A stretch of DNA of 17,222 nucleotides from Candidatus Eiseniibacteriota bacterium (GTDB lineage: Bacteria > Arandabacterota > Arandabacteria > JAGLYR01): contig JAGLYR010000204.1 in assembly GCA_023132135.1 (NCBI GenBank), positions 1 to 17,222 on the forward strand. The letters run 5' to 3'. The notes under the pieces were generated by a model. That model ran no database searches. It had not been told where the DNA came from and saw only the letters and a list, made by a program, of their open reading frames with translations. Of the stretch, positions 6,158-15,620 are shown piece by piece; position 1 is the stretch's first letter, and every line of letters starts with the position of its first letter. The position numbers and the translations under genes were made by a program.

Positions 6158-6513
6158 GTTTCTTTCTTGCGCGCCAGTGCCAGGAGAAGCGCCAGCGCCA
6201 GGAGGGCCCGCATGGCATGATGCGTTGCGGTTGGCTGGCCGTACTGCTGGACTGCGCTGAGGATAGAGAGCACAGCCACCACGATCAGGTTGGCGCCGGC
6301 CAGAAGCTTGGCCCAGGGGAGGTTCCTCGTCAGAGCTGCGCCGGCCAGAGTGAGCCCCGCCCCCGCGATGCCCCCAAGGATGTAGAACAATCGCGCCATG
6401 AGGCCGCCGTCTTCGCCGCTGGTGTAAAGTTCCACACTCCCGGAGATGATGGTGGTGATGCCGAACAGGATAAGAACGACTGCGATCAGATTGCGCATTG
6501 CCGAAAACCTCAT
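6154..6513 (-). CDS. Small four-helix membrane protein, unknown function
   Basis: This protein has 119 residues from the chosen ATG. Four hydrophobic segments are visible: near residues 6-27, 38-60, 66-90 and 100-116. It ends with a basic RKKET tail. I recognise no family. The start at 6513 overlaps the TGA of the upstream S9 peptidase gene (ATGA), implying translational coupling. An in-frame ATG 14 codons earlier (6555) would overlap the peptidase gene by more than 40 bases. A later one at 6498 has a better-spaced TGAGG, so the exact start is uncertain. The short Asp/Glu-Gly loop after helix 1 (ELYTSGEDGG) is the only clearly polar stretch. It may simply be co-expressed with the peptidase. 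Confidence 0.65.
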   Translation of the reverse strand: MRFSAMRNLIAVVLILFGITTIISGSVELYTSGEDGGLMARLFYILGGIAGAGLTLAGAALTRNLPWAKLLAGANLIVVAVLSILSAVQQYGQPTATHHAMRALLALALLLALARKKET

Positions 6514-8636
6514 TTGACCCGCGACGAGGCTGGTGAGGAATGCGGGTTGAGCCACTGATCAAACCAATCCATGATGGAACCATACCAGAAAGCCCGGTTC
6601 TGGGGTTTCTGGATCCAGTGATCCTCGTCGGGGAAGCGGATCATCTTCGAGGGTACACCGAGCCGCTGCAGCGCCGTGAACATCTGCTCCCCGCCGGTGA
6701 TGGGGACCCGGTAGTCCAGCTCACCGTGTGTGATGAGCATCGGCGTGCGGAAGTTCCCGGCGTAGCGGATGGGGGAAGTTCTGTCGTACTCCTCAGGGTT
6801 TTCCCACGGCGGTCCGAAGGTTTCCCATTCGGGGAACCAGAGCTCCTCTGTGGAACCATACCCGCTCCACTGTTCCGCGTCGCCGGCGTGGGAAGCGAGG
6901 CACGCGAAGATGTCCTTGCCGTCCCAGCCCTCGTTGTGACCCTGGAACCAGTTGCACACAAAGCCTCCGAAGGAACCGCCCCATGCGCCGATCCGGTCCC
7001 GATCCACGAAGGAGTAGTTCTCCACCACGTGCCGGACCCCGCGCCGGATGTCCTCAATCACCCGGCCATCCCAGTCGCCCCGGATCTCGTCGGTGAAATC
7101 CTGCCCGTAGCCCGTGGAGCCCCGGGGGTTGCAGAAGAAGACCACGTAGTCGGCCCCGCTGAAGAGCAGGTACTCAAAGCGGATCGCGTAGCCGAACATC
7201 TGCTGCGGCCCGCCATGAACCCGGACCATCATGGGATACTTCCTGCCGGGGTCGAAATCGATGGGTTTGAGCAGGAACCCGTGCACCTGGGCACCTGCGG
7301 CGCCCTCGAACCAGATTTCCTCGCCCTGGGGACGGTAGACCTCGTCCATGAGTTCCTGGTTGACGAAGGTCAACTGCTTCACGTTCCTGCCGTCTCCGCT
7401 GCAGCGGAAGATCTCATAGTAGTTGTCGATGGGACGGTAGCGGTAGACAAAGAACTTTTCCCGGGGACCCGCCTGGCAGTCGAAATGGTACCCGTGCCCT
7501 GTTGGACCGTCGCCGCCCACGATGGTCCTGACCCTATCGCCCTTGCCCTTGAGCGATACAGAGAAGAGGTTCGCGTCGGCCCGGTCCTCAGCCTCGAAAC
7601 AGAGGGTCTTGCCGTTTTCCGTCCAGAAGAATGTCCCCACACTCAGGTCCACATCGTCGGTGAGGCTCCGGATCTCGCGGGTCTTGAGATCCATCACCAT
7701 CAGCTCGTACTTGTCCGACTCGTAGTATGACCTGCGGGTGGCTCGGTACGCCAACCATTTCCCATCGGGGGAAACACGGGGGTGTCCGTCTGCAGCCGGG
7801 TTGTCCGTCAGTTTCTCCACCTCTCCACCGGCTATGGAAACCCTGTAGATCTCCGTGTTGTACGACACGGCCTGGTCCTTGTCCTGGTTGCCGGCGAAGT
7901 AGACATACCTGCCGTCGGGACTGATGTCGAAATCCCGCCCGGCTGAAGCCAACCAGTAAATCAGGGCGTCGTACTCGAGCTCGGGCGTAAGATCCACCGG
8001 ATCCCCGGATCCATCCGCCGGTACGGCGAACAGGTGCTGGGCTTTGCCATCCTCATAGGTATTCCAGTGGCGGTACATGAGATGCTCGTGAACCTTGGCC
8101 TTGACCTTGTTCTCTTCCTTCTCGTCGTCTTTTTCCTCAATGCACCCGGTGTCGTCCCCGCACTCCAGGTATGTCCGGGCCGCGAAGACGATGCGGGTCC
8201 CGTCCGGGGTCCACTCGAAGTCGTCCACCCCTCCTGGGAACTCCGTCAACCGCCGGGCTTCCCCGCCTTCCATGGGGAGGATCCAGATCTGGCCGCCGTC
8301 TCCGCCTCGACTGGACCGGAAAGCCAGCTGCTTTCCGCACGGTGACCACACCGGATAGCTGTCCCCCTTGTCGCTGGTGGTGAGCTGGTGGGAGTCGCCC
8401 CCCCCGGCGGGAACCAACCAGATGTCCGAGTTGTACTTATTCTCGTCGAAGTCACAGACGCTGACCACGTAGGCTACCCATTCGCCGTCTGGCGACAGCG
8501 CAGGGGCGCCGACCCGTTTCATCCGGCAAAGATCATCGGTCGTAAACGGGCGCACCTCATCGGCCGACACGGGGTACACGGAAAGGGCCACGAGAGATGC
8601 TGCCAACAGGAATGCGCAGGTTCGCCAGGTTCGCAT
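6510..8636 (-). CDS. S9 family peptidase (prolyl oligopeptidase / acylaminoacyl-peptidase type), secreted
   Basis: This 708-residue serine peptidase has a signal peptide (about 1-24, ending PVSA). A seven-bladed beta-propeller (about 30-440) follows, with repeats such as SPDGEWVAYV, SPDGRYVYFAG and SPDGKWLAYRA. The C-terminal alpha/beta-hydrolase domain carries the triad Ser555 (GGSFGGF), Asp641 (HGELDYRVP) and His673 (DEDHW). Such enzymes cleave short peptides, often after proline or from acylated N-termini, probably in the periplasm here. An acidic Lys/Glu insert (EEKDDEKEENKVKAKV, about residue 170) interrupts the propeller, and two Cys flank it. The frame is open much further upstream, but AAGGAGG nine bases before ATG 8636 and the signal peptide fix this start. 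It is divergent from the SPFH operon and followed, with overlap, by a small membrane protein gene. Confidence 0.93.
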   Translation of the reverse strand: MRTWRTCAFLLAASLVALSVYPVSADEVRPFTTDDLCRMKRVGAPALSPDGEWVAYVVSVCDFDENKYNSDIWLVPAGGGDSHQLTTSDKGDSYPVWSPCGKQLAFRSSRGGDGGQIWILPMEGGEARRLTEFPGGVDDFEWTPDGTRIVFAARTYLECGDDTGCIEEKDDEKEENKVKAKVHEHLMYRHWNTYEDGKAQHLFAVPADGSGDPVDLTPELEYDALIYWLASAGRDFDISPDGRYVYFAGNQDKDQAVSYNTEIYRVSIAGGEVEKLTDNPAADGHPRVSPDGKWLAYRATRRSYYESDKYELMVMDLKTREIRSLTDDVDLSVGTFFWTENGKTLCFEAEDRADANLFSVSLKGKGDRVRTIVGGDGPTGHGYHFDCQAGPREKFFVYRYRPIDNYYEIFRCSGDGRNVKQLTFVNQELMDEVYRPQGEEIWFEGAAGAQVHGFLLKPIDFDPGRKYPMMVRVHGGPQQMFGYAIRFEYLLFSGADYVVFFCNPRGSTGYGQDFTDEIRGDWDGRVIEDIRRGVRHVVENYSFVDRDRIGAWGGSFGGFVCNWFQGHNEGWDGKDIFACLASHAGDAEQWSGYGSTEELWFPEWETFGPPWENPEEYDRTSPIRYAGNFRTPMLITHGELDYRVPITGGEQMFTALQRLGVPSKMIRFPDEDHWIQKPQNRAFWYGSIMDWFDQWLNPHSSPASSRVK

Positions 8637-8807
8637 TGAGACGGCCTCCTTGCCATAGGGACAGAATCGTGGGAAGTGCCAAACTGTTGCCGAGGTTAGT
8701 GCAAAACTCCCCTTCAGACAACCCCAATGTCTGACGATCCAGATAAGGTGGGGGAAATCGTACAGGATTGCCTTCTCCTGATTTGCGGATTTTTGCATGT
8801 TCTCCCC

Positions 8808-8836
8808 TTGTCTTGACCCATGTGGGGGATTATAAT
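8808..8836 (+). promoter_or_regulatory. Promoter for the CDF-hflK operon
   Basis: A perfect -10 TATAAT (8831-8836) follows TTGTCT (8808-8813, four of six to TTGACA) with a 17-base spacer. Transcription would start near 8843, just before GGGGAGG (8846-8852). The leader would therefore be very short, and only the TTG start at 8860 would lie within the transcript with a ribosome-binding site. Confidence 0.6.
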
Positions 8837-8859
8837 GGGTGTGGTGGGGAGGTAGTGAT

Positions 8860-10545
8860 TTGGATATCCGGGTAAGGGTCGCAGTTCTCGCGATTGTTCT
8901 CAACGTCGTGCTCGTCGTCATCAAGATAATCCTGACCAAGACGACGGGGAGCGCGTCCATACGCGCCGATGCGTTTCACTCCCTTTCAGACGTTCTGGTC
9001 TCGGTCCTGGTTCTAATCGGGGTCGGGCTCGGAGCCCGGAAGCGCAAGGAAGGCATCGTCAACTGGGCCGGTGTTGAGCACGTTGTGGCCATCGTCATCG
9101 GTCTCTTCATTTTCTATGCTGCCTTTGCGATCTTCCGGGAGGCGATCTCTGTTCCCACACGGGCCTTGACCAACGTTCCCATTGCCTTCATCGGTCTCTT
9201 TGCCTGTGTCATCGGTTCGTTTCTCATTTCCCGAGTTGAGATGCGAATCGGGCGGGCCCACGACTCTCCAGCTCTCATAGCCGACGGGTTCCATGCCCGG
9301 ATGAACATGTACACCACGATCGGGGTGCTCGTGAGCCTTGTGGGAATGCGGATGGGTCTCAACCTGGACTCCGCCGCCGCGGCTGTCATCGCTCTCCTGA
9401 TTGCGGTGACGGGGATCGAAGTCGTGGTGAGCTCGGGCCGCGGCCTGGTCCGGGGGAAGCCCATCGAGGACTTTTTCGTCTATCGCTTCATCCGGAGGGT
9501 CATTCTGCGCTGGAAGGGGGACGAAGCGGGGCTTGGGGACGTTCCCTTCCAGATTGCGCCCCCGCGCCGGGTGGTGATCCTGATTTGCCTGGGCATTCTT
9601 CTGCTTGCATGGCTGACCACGGCCTTCTCGGTTGCCCAACCCGGTCAACAGCTGCTGGTTCTCCGGTTTGGCCACATTGTTCGCGAGGACCTGGGCCCCG
9701 GGATTCACGTTCACTTCCCGTGGCCTTTCGAGCAGGCCAAGTCCGTGGACATCGGGAAAATCCGGAGGATCGAGATCGGGTTCCGGACACAGGCCACGGA
9801 GTACTCGCTGGCGGATCGCTCTTACCAGTGGGAGAGCAGGCACTCGGCGGGTTCCTACGCCAAGAAGTTGGACGAATCCGTCATGCTCACCGGAGATGTC
9901 AACCTCATCGACATAAACAGTGTTGTCCAATACCGTGTTTCGGACGCTACCCGATTCCTGCTGGCAGCGGAGGACCCGGACCGGATTGTCCGGGTGGTGT
10001 CGGAGGCCGCTCTCCGGCAGGTGATAGGCAACGAACATATCGACGGTCTCCTCACGACCGATCGACGCCAGATTGAGGACATGTGCAGGGTGCTGATCCA
10101 ATCGATTCTGGAGCCCTACGATATGGGCCTGGAAGTGACCACGGTTCAGTTGCAGGACGTGCATCCGCCGCTCGAAGCCGTGGCCAGTTTCCGGGACGTG
10201 GCGTCGGCGCGGGAGGACCGGAGTCGGCTCATCAACGAGGCCTATGCCTACCGCAACAGCGTGCTGCCCAGGGCCCGGGGCCAGGCGCGGAAGGATGTGC
10301 TGGGTGCGGAGGCCGGCGGTCTCGAGAGGGTGGAACGGGCCTCGGGAGAAGCGGATCGATTCCTGGCGGTTCTGAGTCAGTACCGCCGGGCGCCGGAAGT
10401 CACCGGGACACGCCTCTACCTGGAAGTGCTGGAAGAGGTGCTGCCGGGAATGGAGAAATTCGTGGTTGAGCCGGAGGCGGGAGAGCAACCCGTGGATCTG
10501 CGATTCTACCGCGGTACTCGTACGGATGCGCTGGGAGGACAGTAG
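8860..10545 (+). CDS. Fusion protein: CDF cation-transporter-like domain + HflK (SPFH/band 7) domain
   Basis: This protein has 561 residues. Residues 1-205 form a six-helix cation diffusion facilitator-like module, with the TM2 motif ADAFHSLSD (Asp37, His40, Asp44) and a TM5 motif ADGFHARMN (Asp142, His145, Asn149). The usual CDF cytosolic C-terminal domain is absent. A basic linker is followed by helix 7 (238-256) and a full HflK-type SPFH region with QPGQQLLVLRFG, FPWPFE, SVVQYRV and AAEDPDRIVR, then a coiled-coil tail. Topology fits: the even-helix CDF part ends in the cytosol, and helix 7 would place the SPFH part in the periplasm as in HflK. TTG 8860 is the preferred start, with GGGGAGG seven bases upstream. 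GTG 8839 also opens the frame but precedes the predicted transcript start. It begins an operon with hflC and a second hflK. HflK/HflC modulate the FtsH protease; the fused function is inferred. Confidence 0.88.
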   Translation: MDIRVRVAVLAIVLNVVLVVIKIILTKTTGSASIRADAFHSLSDVLVSVLVLIGVGLGARKRKEGIVNWAGVEHVVAIVIGLFIFYAAFAIFREAISVPTRALTNVPIAFIGLFACVIGSFLISRVEMRIGRAHDSPALIADGFHARMNMYTTIGVLVSLVGMRMGLNLDSAAAAVIALLIAVTGIEVVVSSGRGLVRGKPIEDFFVYRFIRRVILRWKGDEAGLGDVPFQIAPPRRVVILICLGILLLAWLTTAFSVAQPGQQLLVLRFGHIVREDLGPGIHVHFPWPFEQAKSVDIGKIRRIEIGFRTQATEYSLADRSYQWESRHSAGSYAKKLDESVMLTGDVNLIDINSVVQYRVSDATRFLLAAEDPDRIVRVVSEAALRQVIGNEHIDGLLTTDRRQIEDMCRVLIQSILEPYDMGLEVTTVQLQDVHPPLEAVASFRDVASAREDRSRLINEAYAYRNSVLPRARGQARKDVLGAEAGGLERVERASGEADRFLAVLSQYRRAPEVTGTRLYLEVLEEVLPGMEKFVVEPEAGEQPVDLRFYRGTRTDALGGQ

Positions 10546-10547
10546 CA

Positions 10548-11429
10548 ATGGGCGTGAAGTGGGTTTCCCTGATTGTTGGAGTCGGGGTTGTTCTTCTGAT
10601 CCTCAATTCCGCGTTTTTCCAGGTGGCCGAAACAGAGATGGCCATCGTTACCCAGTTCGGAAAACCGGTCCGGGTGATCAAGAAGGCGGGTCTCAGCATC
10701 AAGCTGCCAATGCCGCTCCAGGCCATCAGGCGCTTCGACCGTCGCCTGATCGTGTTCGACCCGAAGCCGGCGGAGTTCCTCACCAGCGACAAGAAAAACG
10801 TGCTGGTGGATGTCTACCTCGGGTGGCAAATCGGCGACCCACTGAGATTCCTGAAGTCGGTCAAGGACCGGTCCGTGGCGGAGCTGTTCCTGGCGGATCT
10901 GACCTACGCCGCGATCGGGGCCGAGTTGGGGAACTACCCTCTTTCGGCGCTGGTTTCGACCGTTTCTGAATCCTTGCATGTGGATACAATTCGGGAGAGG
11001 GTGACGGAGAAATGCCGGGCCCGCGCCCAGCAGGACTACGGTATCGAGATCCTGGAAGTCAGGGTCAAGCGACTGAACCTTCCCGACCAGAACAAGGAGA
11101 GCGTATTTGACCGGATGCGCACTGAGCGGGAAAGACAGGCCAAGAAGTACCGTTCCGAGGGCGAAGAGGAGGCGATGAAAATCCGGGCCGAGACGGACAA
11201 GGAAACCCGCGTGCTCTTGGCCGGGGCGTACAAGGAATCACAACGGATCCTTGGCGAAGCGGACGCCGAAGCTGCCCGGATCTACGCGTCGGCCTACTCG
11301 CGGAACCCCGAATTCTACAAGATGATCCGAACGCTGGAGTCGTACCGGAAATTCATGGATGAAAAGACGACCGTGATCCTTTCAACGGACTCCGAGTTGC
11401 TCAATCTGATGGTGGAAGGCAATCCATAA
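10548..11429 (+). CDS. hflC: HflC, SPFH-domain modulator of FtsH protease
   Basis: This 293-residue HflC-type protein has one N-terminal helix (about 5-22), the opening FQVAETEMAIVTQFGKPVR and an SPFH domain. The classic C-terminal coiled coil starts at RMRTERERQAKKYRSEGEEE and continues through KIRAETDKE, ILGEADAEAARIYA, RNPEFY and TLESYRKFM. This matches family length and order. With HflK it builds a large membrane-anchored ring that encloses FtsH and controls its access to membrane substrates. The ATG lies two bases after the previous stop, with GGGAGG (10533-10538) nine bases upstream, so it is in the same operon as the CDF-HflK fusion. The next gene, a second HflK, begins 27 bases after its stop. 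No ftsH is present in the window. Confidence 0.94.
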   Translation: MGVKWVSLIVGVGVVLLILNSAFFQVAETEMAIVTQFGKPVRVIKKAGLSIKLPMPLQAIRRFDRRLIVFDPKPAEFLTSDKKNVLVDVYLGWQIGDPLRFLKSVKDRSVAELFLADLTYAAIGAELGNYPLSALVSTVSESLHVDTIRERVTEKCRARAQQDYGIEILEVRVKRLNLPDQNKESVFDRMRTERERQAKKYRSEGEEEAMKIRAETDKETRVLLAGAYKESQRILGEADAEAARIYASAYSRNPEFYKMIRTLESYRKFMDEKTTVILSTDSELLNLMVEGNP

Positions 11430-11456: not shown

Positions 11457-12470
11457 ATGAACGAGACGGGAACACAGGAATCGGAACCCAGAGAGAGGGT
11501 CTCCATCCTTGAAACAGTGCGAGGCGTGTTTCCACGCTGGCGGGTGATGCTGCGGGTGGGCGCGCTGGTCTTCGCGGCGCTCTATCTCGCGTCGGGCCTC
11601 TATGTGGTCCAGCCGGATGAACAGGGAGTCGTCACTCGCTTCGGCCGCATTGTCAACGACGGGGCGATGCCGGGAATGCACTATCGTCTCCCGTGGCCCG
11701 TCGAGAAAGTGGATAGACCCAAGATCACCGAAGTCAAAATCATGAGTGTCGGATTCCGGGTGGTGGACCGGGTGCGAGGATTGCCGCCGGCCAAGGAAGA
11801 ATCGGAGATACTCACGGGGGACGAGAACATCATCAATATCCAGCTGATGGTTCAGTACCGGATTGCCGATCCGGCGAAGTTCCTTTTTGCAGCGGAAGAC
11901 CCCCACTGGCTCGTGCGCAGGGCGGCCGAGAGTACTCTCACCCAGGTTGTCGGATCCCTGGGTGTCGACGATATCTTAACCAGCGAGAAGTTCGCTATCC
12001 AGGAACGCGTGCGTGAGGGAACAGAGGAGATCCTGGCCCGGTACGGGTGCGGGCTCAAGGTGATCGGCGTCTACTTCCAGGATATCAGTCCCCCGAGCGA
12101 AGTGGGCTACGCTTTCCGGGATGTGTCCTCGGCCCGGGAGGACAAGAACCGCATTGTCCACGAGGCCCAGGGCTACCGGAACGAAGTAATGCCCAAGGCG
12201 CGAGGAGAGGCCGAGGAGATTCTCCGGAAGGCCGAAGCCTACCGGATCGAGCGGGTCGAGCGGGCCAAGGGCGATGCCGACCGCTTCGTTGCCCTGCTCG
12301 CGGAATACGAGAAGCACCCGGAAGTGACGCGCACCCGTCTCTATGTGGAAGCCATGGAGGAGATCCTGCCGCGCTTGAAGAAGTACATGATTGGCAAGGG
12401 CGATGGGCAACCTGTGGCCAATCTCAAGCTGTTCCTGCCGGAAGCCTCGAAGAGCATACCCGCCAGATAG
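11457..12470 (+). CDS. hflK: HflK, second (unfused) copy, SPFH-domain protein
   Basis: This 337-residue HflK-type protein has an N-terminal cytosolic tail, one membrane helix (about 31-50) and YVVQPDEQGVVTRFGRIV followed by the PG...LPWPVE motif. The SPFH domain includes LTGDENIINI, MVQYRIAD and AAEDPHWLVR. The coiled-coil tail includes SSAREDKNRIVHEAQGYRNE and ERAKGDADRF. It lines up segment by segment with the HflK half of the upstream fusion protein, so the two look like paralogues. The fused copy has a longer loop before LTGD. It is the third gene of the operon, giving an unusual K-C-K order. Only weak Shine-Dalgarno-like GGGA or AGG lies before the ATG. No obvious terminator hairpin follows. 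Confidence 0.93.
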   Translation: MNETGTQESEPRERVSILETVRGVFPRWRVMLRVGALVFAALYLASGLYVVQPDEQGVVTRFGRIVNDGAMPGMHYRLPWPVEKVDRPKITEVKIMSVGFRVVDRVRGLPPAKEESEILTGDENIINIQLMVQYRIADPAKFLFAAEDPHWLVRRAAESTLTQVVGSLGVDDILTSEKFAIQERVREGTEEILARYGCGLKVIGVYFQDISPPSEVGYAFRDVSSAREDKNRIVHEAQGYRNEVMPKARGEAEEILRKAEAYRIERVERAKGDADRFVALLAEYEKHPEVTRTRLYVEAMEEILPRLKKYMIGKGDGQPVANLKLFLPEASKSIPAR

Positions 12471-12574
12471 CCGTGAACACTGTTTGCTTTCGCGTTGGAA
12501 TCCTGCCAGCATTATACTAAACTGCATTGCTATAAGGTTACGCTTCGCCCCTGGCCCTGACCCGGAGTTGGACT
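12471..12574. promoter_or_regulatory. Intergenic region with possible -10 boxes for the beta-helix gene
   Basis: TATACT (12513-12518) and TATAAG (12531-12536) resemble -10 boxes, but neither has a convincing -35 at 16-18 bases. GGAG (12564-12567) is the ribosome-binding site of the next gene. Confidence 0.3.
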
Positions 12575-14710
12575 ATGAAATCCTTGGTCACTGTTTTCTC
12601 ATGCGCTTTTGTTCTCGCAACCTGCTCTGCTTCGCAGGCGGTGGTCTGGAATGTGCCCACGGATGTGCCGACGATTCAGGCGGGAATCGACTCGGCCAGC
12701 GCGGGGGATACTGTCCTGGTCGCCTGCGGGACATACTATGAGCATGACATCGCGATGAAATCGGGTGTTGTACTGCGCAGCGAGACCGGCCAACCGGATT
12801 GCGTCACAATCGACGCAGACCAGCTGGGCCGTGTCCTCTACTGCGACAACGTGGACGGCACGGCCACGATCGAAGGATTCACGATCACGAACGGCCTGGT
12901 GGGCGGCTATGGTGGGGGACTGTACTGTGGCAACTCGTTCCTCACTATCGCCGATTGCGTGTTCTCCGCCAACTCGGCCGACGACGGCGGGGGGATGTAC
13001 TGCAGCAACTGCTCCCCGACGCTCACCCACTGCGACTTCTCCGAGAACTCGGCGACGGATTTCTGGGGCAGGGGTGGTGGGGTTCACTGCGAAGACGCGG
13101 ATGCCGTGTTCATCAACTGCACTTTCTACGGCAACTCGGCGAGGATGTATGGCGCCGGGTTGAGTTGCAAGACCTACAGTTCCCCCGTTCTCACCGGCTG
13201 CACCTTCCACGGAAACGAGGGGAGCATGTATGGCGGCGGAGTGAGCTCTGAGTACTACTGCTCCCCCGGCCTCACCAGCTGCGTCTTCTACGGGAACTCC
13301 GCGAGCTTCGGTGGCGGCGGGGTCTTCTGCTGGGACTACTCCTCCGCCACGCTTACCAGCTGCACCTTCTCCGGGAACTCGGCAGGCGAAGCGGGGGGTG
13401 GGGTGTTCTGCGCGGCCAACAGTTCCCTTACCGTTCAGAATACCATCATCGCGTTCAACAACAATGGTGGGGCGGCGGTCTGCGACGGCACGAGCGGCGC
13501 TACGCTTGCCTGCTGCGATCTCTACGGCAACACGGGCGGTGACTGGACCGGGTGCGTAGCAGATCAACTCGGCATACTTGGCAACATCTCTGAAGACCCC
13601 CTGTTCTGCAATCCCGGGGCTGATGACTTCCGACTGGCTCCCGGTTCTCCCTGCGCACCCATGACATCTCCGAATCCGCAGTGCTCCCTCATCGGGTGTC
13701 TCGGGGTTGGGTGTGGAGATTGGGAAGGAATCATGTCCATCACGGATGTGCCCGGCGATCAAGGCGGGCAGGTCCGGGTGACCTGGACCTCTCATGATTC
13801 CGATAACCCCGGCTCGCTGGAACCGATTGTCGAATACAGCCTTTGGCGGCGGATCGATGAGTGGTTGAAGGCGGAATACGGTGAGCCACAGAAAAGCACG
13901 CGCGGCTCCCTGCGCTATCCCCCGGGCAGCTGGGAATACGTCTTGACGGTTCCTGCCCTTGGGGAGAGCACTTACACCGCCATCTCTCCCACAATGTGCG
14001 ATTCGACGATCGCGGAGGGGCTGTGCTGGTCCGTCCTGTACCTGACGGCTCAGACGGAGAGCCCTGACGTGTACTATGAGTGCGAGCCCGACAGCGGCTA
14101 CTCGGTAGACAACCTGGAGCCCGCGGCGCCCCAGAACCTGACCGCCGAGCGTGACAGCGCGAGCATTGTCCTTAGCTGGGATCCGGTCCCCGAGGAGGAC
14201 TTCAAGTACTACACCGTCTACCGAGGCGACGAGGAGGATTTCCAGATTGATGAGCCCATTGGCTATTCGCCGGCAGAAAGCTACACCGACAACGATCTTC
14301 CGGGTCCCGGTGACTACTGGTACAAGGTGACGGCAACGGACTTCGCGGGCAACGAGAGCGAGCCGTCCCTGTCGGCCAGTGCCGGCACGCTGGGTGTAGG
14401 GGATCCGGGGGGGACTGTTCCGACCCTGTTCTACCTTGGCCCGGCGACCCCGAATCCCTTCAATCCACTCACTGAGATCAGCTATGGCATCCCCGCGGGT
14501 ACGGCTCCGTCTCACGTCGTGATGCAAGTCTTCGATACCCTGGGCCGTGAGGTGACAGCGCTTGTGGACGCGGATCACGGGCCTGGAACACATAGCGTGG
14601 TGTGGGATGGGAGAGATTGGAAGGGCGCGGCGGTGGCGAGCGGTGTCTATTTCTACCGCATTACCTGGAACGGCAGGAGCGAAACGAAGCGAATGGTGCT
14701 GCTCAAATAG
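12575..14710 (+). CDS. Secreted Cys-rich parallel beta-helix protein with FN3-like and C-terminal sorting-type domains
   Basis: This 711-residue exported protein has a signal peptide (about 1-22, ending SASQA) followed by the usual opening of right-handed beta-helix proteins (VPTIQAGIDSASAGDTVLVA). Residues about 85-340 hold seven or eight rungs of roughly 25-29 residues, pattern GGG-x-x-C-...-LT-x-C-x-F-x-GNSA, with two Cys per rung in register. Residues 390-510 are a beta-rich domain (DVPGDQGGQVRVTWT), 517-605 an FN3 domain (APQNLTAERD, SWDPVPEEDF), and 619-711 a FlgD-like or type IX-like C-terminal domain (PATPNPFNP, GREVTALVD, GVYFYR). Proteins of this build are usually cell-surface or extracellular, for adhesion or polysaccharide binding; no catalytic motif is evident. 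GGAG precedes the ATG by seven bases. Confidence 0.85.
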   Translation: MKSLVTVFSCAFVLATCSASQAVVWNVPTDVPTIQAGIDSASAGDTVLVACGTYYEHDIAMKSGVVLRSETGQPDCVTIDADQLGRVLYCDNVDGTATIEGFTITNGLVGGYGGGLYCGNSFLTIADCVFSANSADDGGGMYCSNCSPTLTHCDFSENSATDFWGRGGGVHCEDADAVFINCTFYGNSARMYGAGLSCKTYSSPVLTGCTFHGNEGSMYGGGVSSEYYCSPGLTSCVFYGNSASFGGGGVFCWDYSSATLTSCTFSGNSAGEAGGGVFCAANSSLTVQNTIIAFNNNGGAAVCDGTSGATLACCDLYGNTGGDWTGCVADQLGILGNISEDPLFCNPGADDFRLAPGSPCAPMTSPNPQCSLIGCLGVGCGDWEGIMSITDVPGDQGGQVRVTWTSHDSDNPGSLEPIVEYSLWRRIDEWLKAEYGEPQKSTRGSLRYPPGSWEYVLTVPALGESTYTAISPTMCDSTIAEGLCWSVLYLTAQTESPDVYYECEPDSGYSVDNLEPAAPQNLTAERDSASIVLSWDPVPEEDFKYYTVYRGDEEDFQIDEPIGYSPAESYTDNDLPGPGDYWYKVTATDFAGNESEPSLSASAGTLGVGDPGGTVPTLFYLGPATPNPFNPLTEISYGIPAGTAPSHVVMQVFDTLGREVTALVDADHGPGTHSVVWDGRDWKGAAVASGVYFYRITWNGRSETKRMVLLK

Positions 14711-14716
14711 GAACAA

Positions 14717-14828
14717 GTGTGGACCCGGCGGATTCCGTACTACTTGACGCCGATAGGTACCAGTTGCTACAAATTAGGAGTTCACATTGTGAGCTGGGTC
14801 CGTCAACACAGAAGGAGCACAACCCTAC
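14717..14828 (+). promoter_or_regulatory. Upstream region of thi4: promoter candidate and dyad, no TPP riboswitch seen
   Basis: TTGACG (14744-14749), 18 bases, then TACAAA (14768-14773) is a plausible promoter. GTGTGGACCC (14717-14726) can pair with GGGTCC (14796-14801) plus ACAC (14806-14809) across a four-base bulge. A small palindrome TCACATTGTGA lies at 14782-14792. The conserved TPP-riboswitch strings (CTGAGA and an ACCTGATC-like stem) are absent. Confidence 0.4.
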
Positions 14829-15620
14829 ATGAAACTCGATGATGTCAAGATCTCCGAAGCCATTATCAAGAGCTACATGAGGAAGCTGCTGTCGGTGCTG
14901 AAAACAGACGTCGCTATCGTCGGCGGTGGACCGGCGGGTCTGACGGCAGCCTACTGTCTGGCAAGAGCAAAGAAGAAGGTGGTTCTCTTCGAAAGGAAGC
15001 TGTCCCTGGGTGGCGGTATCTGGGGCGGCGGCATGCAGTTCAATGAGATCGTCGTGCAGGAGGGTGGAAGGAAGATCCTCAGGGAGTTCGGGATCAGAAC
15101 CACCGGGGCGCGGAAGGGTTATTACTGCGCCGACGCGGTGGAGGTGGCATCGACTCTCTGCTCGAAGGCAATCCAGGCCGGGGCCCGCGTCATGAATCTG
15201 CTCAGTGTGGAAGATGTGATGGTGGAGAAGGAGCGCGTGACGGGACTCGTCATCAACTGGAGCGCTGTGGAGATGGCGGGTCTCCACGTGGACCCGATTT
15301 CCGTCCGTTCGAAGTTCGTGATCGATGCCACCGGGCACGCCACCGAAATCGCTCATCTCATTGAGGAGAAAACCGGTCCCGGGCTCGCGACTGAAAGCGG
15401 CGGTGTGATCGGTGAAGGATCCATGTGGGCCGATCAAGCCGAGGTCCTGACGATGGAGAACACCCGGGAGATTTTCCCGAACGTCTACGTGGCGGGCATG
15501 GCTGCCAACGCCGTATTCGGCGGTCCCCGCATGGGGCCTATCTTCGGCGGGATGCTGATGAGCGGGAAAAAGGTGGCCGACCTCATCCTGCGAAGGCTAG
15601 AATCGGAGAATCTGAGATGA
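14829..15620 (+). CDS. thi4: Thi4-type thiazole synthase, sulfide-dependent (His) form
   Basis: This 263-residue protein of the Thi4 family makes adenosine-diphospho thiazole, the thiazole precursor of thiamin, from NAD, glycine and a sulfur source. The Rossmann motif VGGGPAGL (residues 31-38) binds dinucleotide and is followed by [12 protein letters not shown]. The key site reads [14 protein letters not shown]. The position occupied by the sulfur-donating Cys in yeast-type suicide enzymes is His153 here, as in methanogen enzymes that use free sulfide with iron and are catalytic. The C-terminal [22 protein letters not shown] is also typical. GAAGGAG (14811-14817) precedes the ATG by 11 bases. 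Its TGA overlaps the ATG of the DUF2207 gene. The His form implies a reducing, sulfide-containing cytosol. Confidence 0.94.

Follow-up and report, generated by a model that had tools for sequence, protein, structure and literature searches.

A cation diffusion facilitator domain fused to HflK heads a three-gene SPFH operon found in several bacterial phyla

Results

A CDF domain and a complete HflK in one reading frame

The window, the 17,222-nt stretch of a Candidatus Eiseniibacteriota genome analysed here (GCA_023132135.1, contig JAGLYR010000204.1), contains an uninterrupted frame on the plus strand (8839-10545) that encodes a complete HflK preceded by a cation diffusion facilitator (CDF) domain (Table 1). 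The TTG codon at 8860 is the likely start, because the relatives that start with ATG begin at the same residue (MDI/MDV). The CDF part exceeds the curated cut-offs of both Pfam Cation_efflux (E 7e-26, 91.7 bits against 26.6) and NCBIfam TIGR01297 (93 bits against 82). The HflK part matches Pfam Band_7 (E 2e-18) and, with hflC adjacent, NCBIfam TIGR01933 hflK (219 bits against 159.4), and it aligns with E. coli HflK at E 1.5e-38. A sequence-only reading of the window had described a six-helix CDF-like module and a complete HflK in one frame, with HflK in its normal orientation. The curated cut-offs bear out the first point, and the second agrees with the predicted topology, in which six CDF helices, a basic cytoplasmic linker and the HflK helix place the SPFH domain on the periplasmic side; this arrangement is supported. 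The helix pattern from AlphaFold2, run on a three-row alignment, fits six CDF helices, the HflK helix and long C-terminal helices, at a pLDDT (41) too poor for tertiary claims or a cage model.

CDF exporters usually, though not universally, carry a C-terminal ZT_dimer domain, which normally dimerises and regulates the protein. Between residues 198 and 257 of the window protein, no Pfam match to this cytoplasmic domain was found.

Table 1 Features of the CDF-HflK locus in the window
Feature	Coordinates	Strand	Evidence
Promoter-like site TTGTCT-17-TATAAT ahead of CDF-HflK	8808..8836	+	1 found vs 1.2 expected by chance in the scanned region; weak
Ribosome-binding site GGGGAGG, seven bases before TTG 8860	8846..8852	+	Sequence
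CDF-HflK fusion gene, 561 aa, TTG start	8860..10545	+	Pfam, NCBIfam, orthologues, purifying selection in relatives
CDF (Cation_efflux) six-helix domain, residues 9-197	8884..9450	+	Pfam; helix pattern
TM2 half of metal site, His40-x3-Asp44	8977..8991	+	Alignment
TM5 half of metal site, His145-x3-Asn149	9292..9306	+	Alignment; the other 22 aligned copies have Asp
Basic linker, presumably cytoplasmic, replacing the CDF C-terminal domain	9451..9579	+	Alignment
HflK transmembrane helix, ~residues 241-260	9580..9639	+	Alignment, predicted helices
SPFH/Band_7 domain of HflK, residues 258-463	9631..10248	+	Pfam
hflC, 2 bp after the fusion gene	10548..11429	+	TIGR01932, 210 bits; clade in tree
Second, unfused hflK (HflK2), 27 bp after hflC	11457..12470	+	TIGR01933, 267 bits; clade in tree

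The operon and its genome

The fusion gene heads a same-strand operon with the order [CDF-HflK]-HflC-HflK2. The sequence-only reading had placed it in an operon with hflC under a shared promoter; the operon stands, the second hflK had been overlooked, and the promoter-like site is about as frequent as chance would give. The operon is flanked by a divergent gene of the S9 prolyl oligopeptidase family (6510-8960, minus strand), with which it has its upstream region in common, and by a gene for a predicted repeat-rich, apparently secreted protein. Elsewhere, the window's genome encodes a canonical hflK-hflC pair (L126) and one copy of FtsH. A PF01545 search of this genome, which is fragmented into 345 contigs, returned no CDF besides the fused one.

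Distribution of the fusion

The fusion was found in ~20 of 386 genomes spread over the domain, and later additions brought the aligned fused copies to 23; the comparison covers mainly draft genomes, with one closed plasmid as an anchor. Within the window's class it is present in seven of eight genomes, the window's included; the other copies are ~37-46% identical to that of the window, and one of them lies across two contigs. Phylum-restricted searches around G042, G272, G224 and G031 covered small, non-overlapping phyla (3 to 9 genomes each), which, together with the window's own group, places the fusion in at least five phyla. The Pseudomonadota are a sixth: a closed conjugative plasmid of the alphaproteobacterium Aquibium oceanicum (NZ_CP018172.1) encodes CDF-HflK (515 aa), HflC and a further HflK, a trio annotated just as HflK, HflC and HflK. 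Mapping the phyla of such homologues had been proposed from the window alone, and fused proteins thus occur in at least six. The same proposal had allowed that the homologues might always be separate genes; among the loci read, we found no split CDF and HflK version, and no copy has a stop between the halves.

The order fused HflK, HflC, HflK2 recurs in ~20 loci with enough contig, G098 being the exception, and the trio is almost certainly a conserved three-component system. Canonical hflK-hflC pairs are also present in many of the other genomes with the fusion. The G098 protein (L085:6260-8083, plus strand) is very divergent, and its gene has neither HflC nor HflK2 nearby.

Several candidates were rejected. 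The long frames of G032 (650 aa) and G013 either read through upstream of a normal HflK or have nothing to do with one, and the 522-aa frame of G109 is a stand-alone CDF. The 945-aa frame of G076 (L086:3995-6829, plus strand) has a degraded, GC-rich CDF ahead of HflK and no Pfam match to either domain. A scan of genome contigs for the fusion gave only normal gammaproteobacterial HflK-HflC, and a plasmid search with the G224-type sequence gave no matches.

Ancestry of the three proteins

In careful trees, the HflC proteins of the trio operons form one clade against canonical HflC (100/99), and the fused CDF domains form one clade against stand-alone CDFs (100/99). Fused HflK (95/98), HflK2 (95/98) and canonical HflK (97/95) make three separate groups, and the window's fused HflK does not group with the canonical one. 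Quick trees put the Aquibium proteins in the expected groups. From these separate, well-supported clades it follows that CDF and HflK were joined once, as far as the data tell, and that the trio travelled together; to judge from the trees, the join is old.

The metal site

The HxxxD/HxxxD ligands are complete in 20 of the 23 aligned fused copies, and the site is also complete in the Aquibium copy. In the window copy the ligands are His/Asp/His/Asn (HDHN), an AAC codon (9304-9306) having replaced the last Asp by Asn149. The first His is replaced by Ala in G353 and G399 (ADHD), and G076 has lost the CDF metal-site motif. The only CDF found in the window's genome is therefore a copy with an altered metal site. 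Asn149 may lower or retune metal binding, so that transport or selectivity may be altered in the window copy; the manganese transporter SLC30A10 has an Asn in the TM2 part of its site.

Codon comparison of close pairs of relatives gave dN/dS values of 0.03-0.23 in the CDF, linker and HflK parts alike, and of 0.08 in the CDF half between the two ADHD copies (G353 and G399). Given the altered sites in the window, G353, G399 and G076, a working transporter is not needed in every copy.

A P1B-ATPase in the place of the CDF

In addition to its CDF operon, G272 has a P1B-type ATPase that continues into HflK in one frame of 1052 aa (L125:6494-9649, minus strand), with HflC and HflK2 behind it. The P1B-HflK proteins match PF00122 and PF00702 (E1-E2_ATPase and Hydrolase) and carry TGES, CPC, DKTGT and GDGINDAP (GDGxNDxP); one copy ends at a contig end. 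This version was found in five of five genomes of the order to which G272 belongs (L125, L171, L172, L173 and L174), and in the broad sample in G272 only, among the matches listed. Its HflC and HflK proteins fall in the trio's clades, and an AU test on the direction of the CDF/P1B exchange favours neither pump as the earlier one (p = 0.435). CDF and P1B pumps both have an even number of helices and cytoplasmic ends, and therefore either pump leaves HflK normally oriented. The P1B version, like Asn149 and the iron, Fe-S and copper neighbourhoods of the relatives, was absent from the sequence-only reading.

In a separate region of G272 (L129:3326-5359, plus strand), a slipin-type SPFH protein apparently continues into a radical SAM/SPASM-like domain (678 aa); next to this gene stand those of another radical SAM-like protein and of an FtsH-like protease.

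Metal-related genes beside the operons

In G002, G005, G006 and G007, the CDF-HflK operon is immediately preceded by FeoA/FeoB genes of the same strand. A set comprising MrpORP, MinD-ferredoxin ATPases, a NifX-type protein and DUF5320 is found nearby, whole or in part, in G001, G005, G006, G178, G224 and G293. The MrpORP near the operons combines a NUBPL-type ATPase with a dinitrogenase-cofactor domain, and MrpORP serves the ORP complex as an iron-sulfur carrier (PMC6345978). Two MinD-ferredoxin genes flank the operon in G178, and MrpORP follows the second of them. The Aquibium plasmid operon is surrounded by genes for Nramp, copper chaperones, SCO, CopD and a heavy-metal ATPase. Feo, MrpORP-type and copper genes are absent beside the operon in the window, nor were they found in several of the relatives. 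The neighbour genes thus support a role of the family in metal handling, but do not fix the metal.

Individual loci of this kind are L077:1968-11152, L037:11861-16000 and L039:172-5293, where CDF-HflK operons stand beside MrpORP, MinD-ferredoxin, NifX and DUF5320 genes, and L189 (NZ_CP018172.1) 11785-15430, where the CDF-HflK/HflC/HflK2 operon lies within a copper/Nramp metal island; in the window's class, operons were seen directly after feoA-feoB.

Discussion

A proposed dedicated cage with a built-in exporter

The reading that we prefer, and hold to be somewhat better than an even bet, is that the trio would form an SPFH cage of its own, equipped with a metal exporter and existing in parallel with HflKC-FtsH. 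With a canonical hflKC pair and one FtsH in the same genome, and with the trio in separate clades, a dedicated complex beside HflKC-FtsH fits better than a modified HflKC-FtsH.

From the genes we infer cage assembly, ring stoichiometry, the position of the transporter, transport itself and the identity of the metal as follows. The cage would have three components, the transporter-HflK (HflK1), HflC and HflK2, and would exist as a distinct complex beside the cell's HflKC-FtsH. In a ring that alternates between K and C, the 'K' positions are probably divided between HflK1 and HflK2: a limited number of exporter modules would be placed at the foot of the cage, in the membrane, each connected to the HflK helix by the cytoplasmic linker, and HflK2 would fill the remaining K positions, keeping the bulky pumps from packing side by side. 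The SPFH oligomer would take over the clustering role of the missing CDF C-terminal domain. The exporter would carry a divalent metal out of the cytoplasm to the periplasmic side, releasing it within or next to the space that the cage covers, and we tentatively place the transporters inside the cage or at its wall, a placement that has slightly less than an even chance. Metal transport is likely to be typical of the family, and for the window copy with its altered site it could go either way. Context favours iron in some lineages, and zinc or another metal is possible; iron as the main metal is a somewhat doubtful assignment.

Alternative explanations

The sequence-only reading had suggested a unit for metal transport or sensing tied to the control of FtsH, itself a zinc protease. 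In a sensor version of this idea, the CDF-like part would bind metal and shift the conformation of a cage regulating FtsH, without bulk transport. Such a role would suit a family that conserves the four-ligand site and lacks the regulatory CDF C-terminal domain, and in E. coli canonical HflKC has ties to FtsH and to iron physiology (PMC12005517). What a passive sensor leaves unexplained is that an unrelated, ATP-driven pump whose catalytic motifs are intact occupies the same slot, and the genomes have kept canonical hflKC as well; we regard a sensor as unlikely. That pump also bears on the idea that the CDF part, as the relic of a former transporter, mostly anchors the protein in the membrane or acts as a spacer, as the HDHN, ADHD and degenerate sites might suggest. 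If any anchor would do, the alternative occupant need not be another metal pump, and both the full site in most copies and the purifying selection on the CDF half, which persists between ADHD copies, speak against a relic, making this quite unlikely.

Both halves look like complete domains, and the fusion might serve only to have a transporter and an SPFH protein made together, each then working separately. This is very unlikely in view of the missing split versions among the loci read, of halves never parted by a stop, and of fused HflK, HflC and HflK2 partners that form clades of their own. An assembly join or frameshift artefact might be suspected in a genome as fragmented as that of the window; the same join in ~20 other, independent genomes and in a closed plasmid leaves it practically no chance, and the sequence-only reading was right to take the gene as real.

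Significance

SPFH proteins build cages on the membrane, for which the usual view is a role in protease control and membrane organisation. A cage covalently joined to an exporter, with two unrelated pump types in one slot, points to a specific cargo, and CDF-HflK offers a defined protein for asking whether SPFH cages organise transport. The dedicated cage may, at about even odds, represent an undescribed SPFH class, in which a ring subunit carries its own pump and would create a metal-loaded or metal-screened membrane compartment, the pump type (CDF or P1B) being exchangeable and the cage conserved, across phyla and on a plasmid. Genes publicly labelled plain HflK (e.g. WP_072608301.1) can hide a transporter domain. 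A search confined to the open literature gave no paper on HflK or another SPFH protein joined to a CDF or P-type ATPase, and this domain pairing may have been noticed elsewhere before.

Comparison with known systems

The trio shares with canonical HflK-HflC of E. coli (PDB 7vhp, 7wi3, 9cz1) the HflK and HflC families, adjacent genes, a single N-in helix and a periplasmic SPFH domain, and departs from it by a third gene, that of the second HflK, by its placement in separate clades and by the metal exporter that HflK1 carries. In E. coli, the HflKC cage around FtsH occurs in open and closed forms (PMC13220708), and cells that lack HflKC lose the Fe-S protein IspG as well as TonB and show a heightened sensitivity to iron chelation (PMC12005517). 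The fused CDF has the six helices and, in most copies, the TM2/TM5 HxxxD site of CDF/SLC30 exporters (FieF/YiiP 3h90, SLC30A1 8zb0); unlike them, it has no detected ZT_dimer, is followed by HflK and forms its own clade, and in the window copy one site residue is Asn. P1B-HflK shares the core and motifs of P1B-type ATPases (CopA 3j09, ZntA 4umv), but continues C-terminally into HflK, with HflC and HflK2 behind it. The MrpORP, MinD-ferredoxin and NifX-type set beside several operons matches the Desulfovibrio ORP cluster (MrpORP, Orp3/4; PMC6345978), whereas that paper makes no mention of HflK and the window has no ORP-type cluster. The same idea of an SPFH cage round a membrane transporter is embodied in the stomatin dome, which has been seen enclosing AQP1 and UT-B (PMC12407830). 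That assembly is human and non-covalent, whereas in the system described here the transporter lies within the SPFH polypeptide itself.
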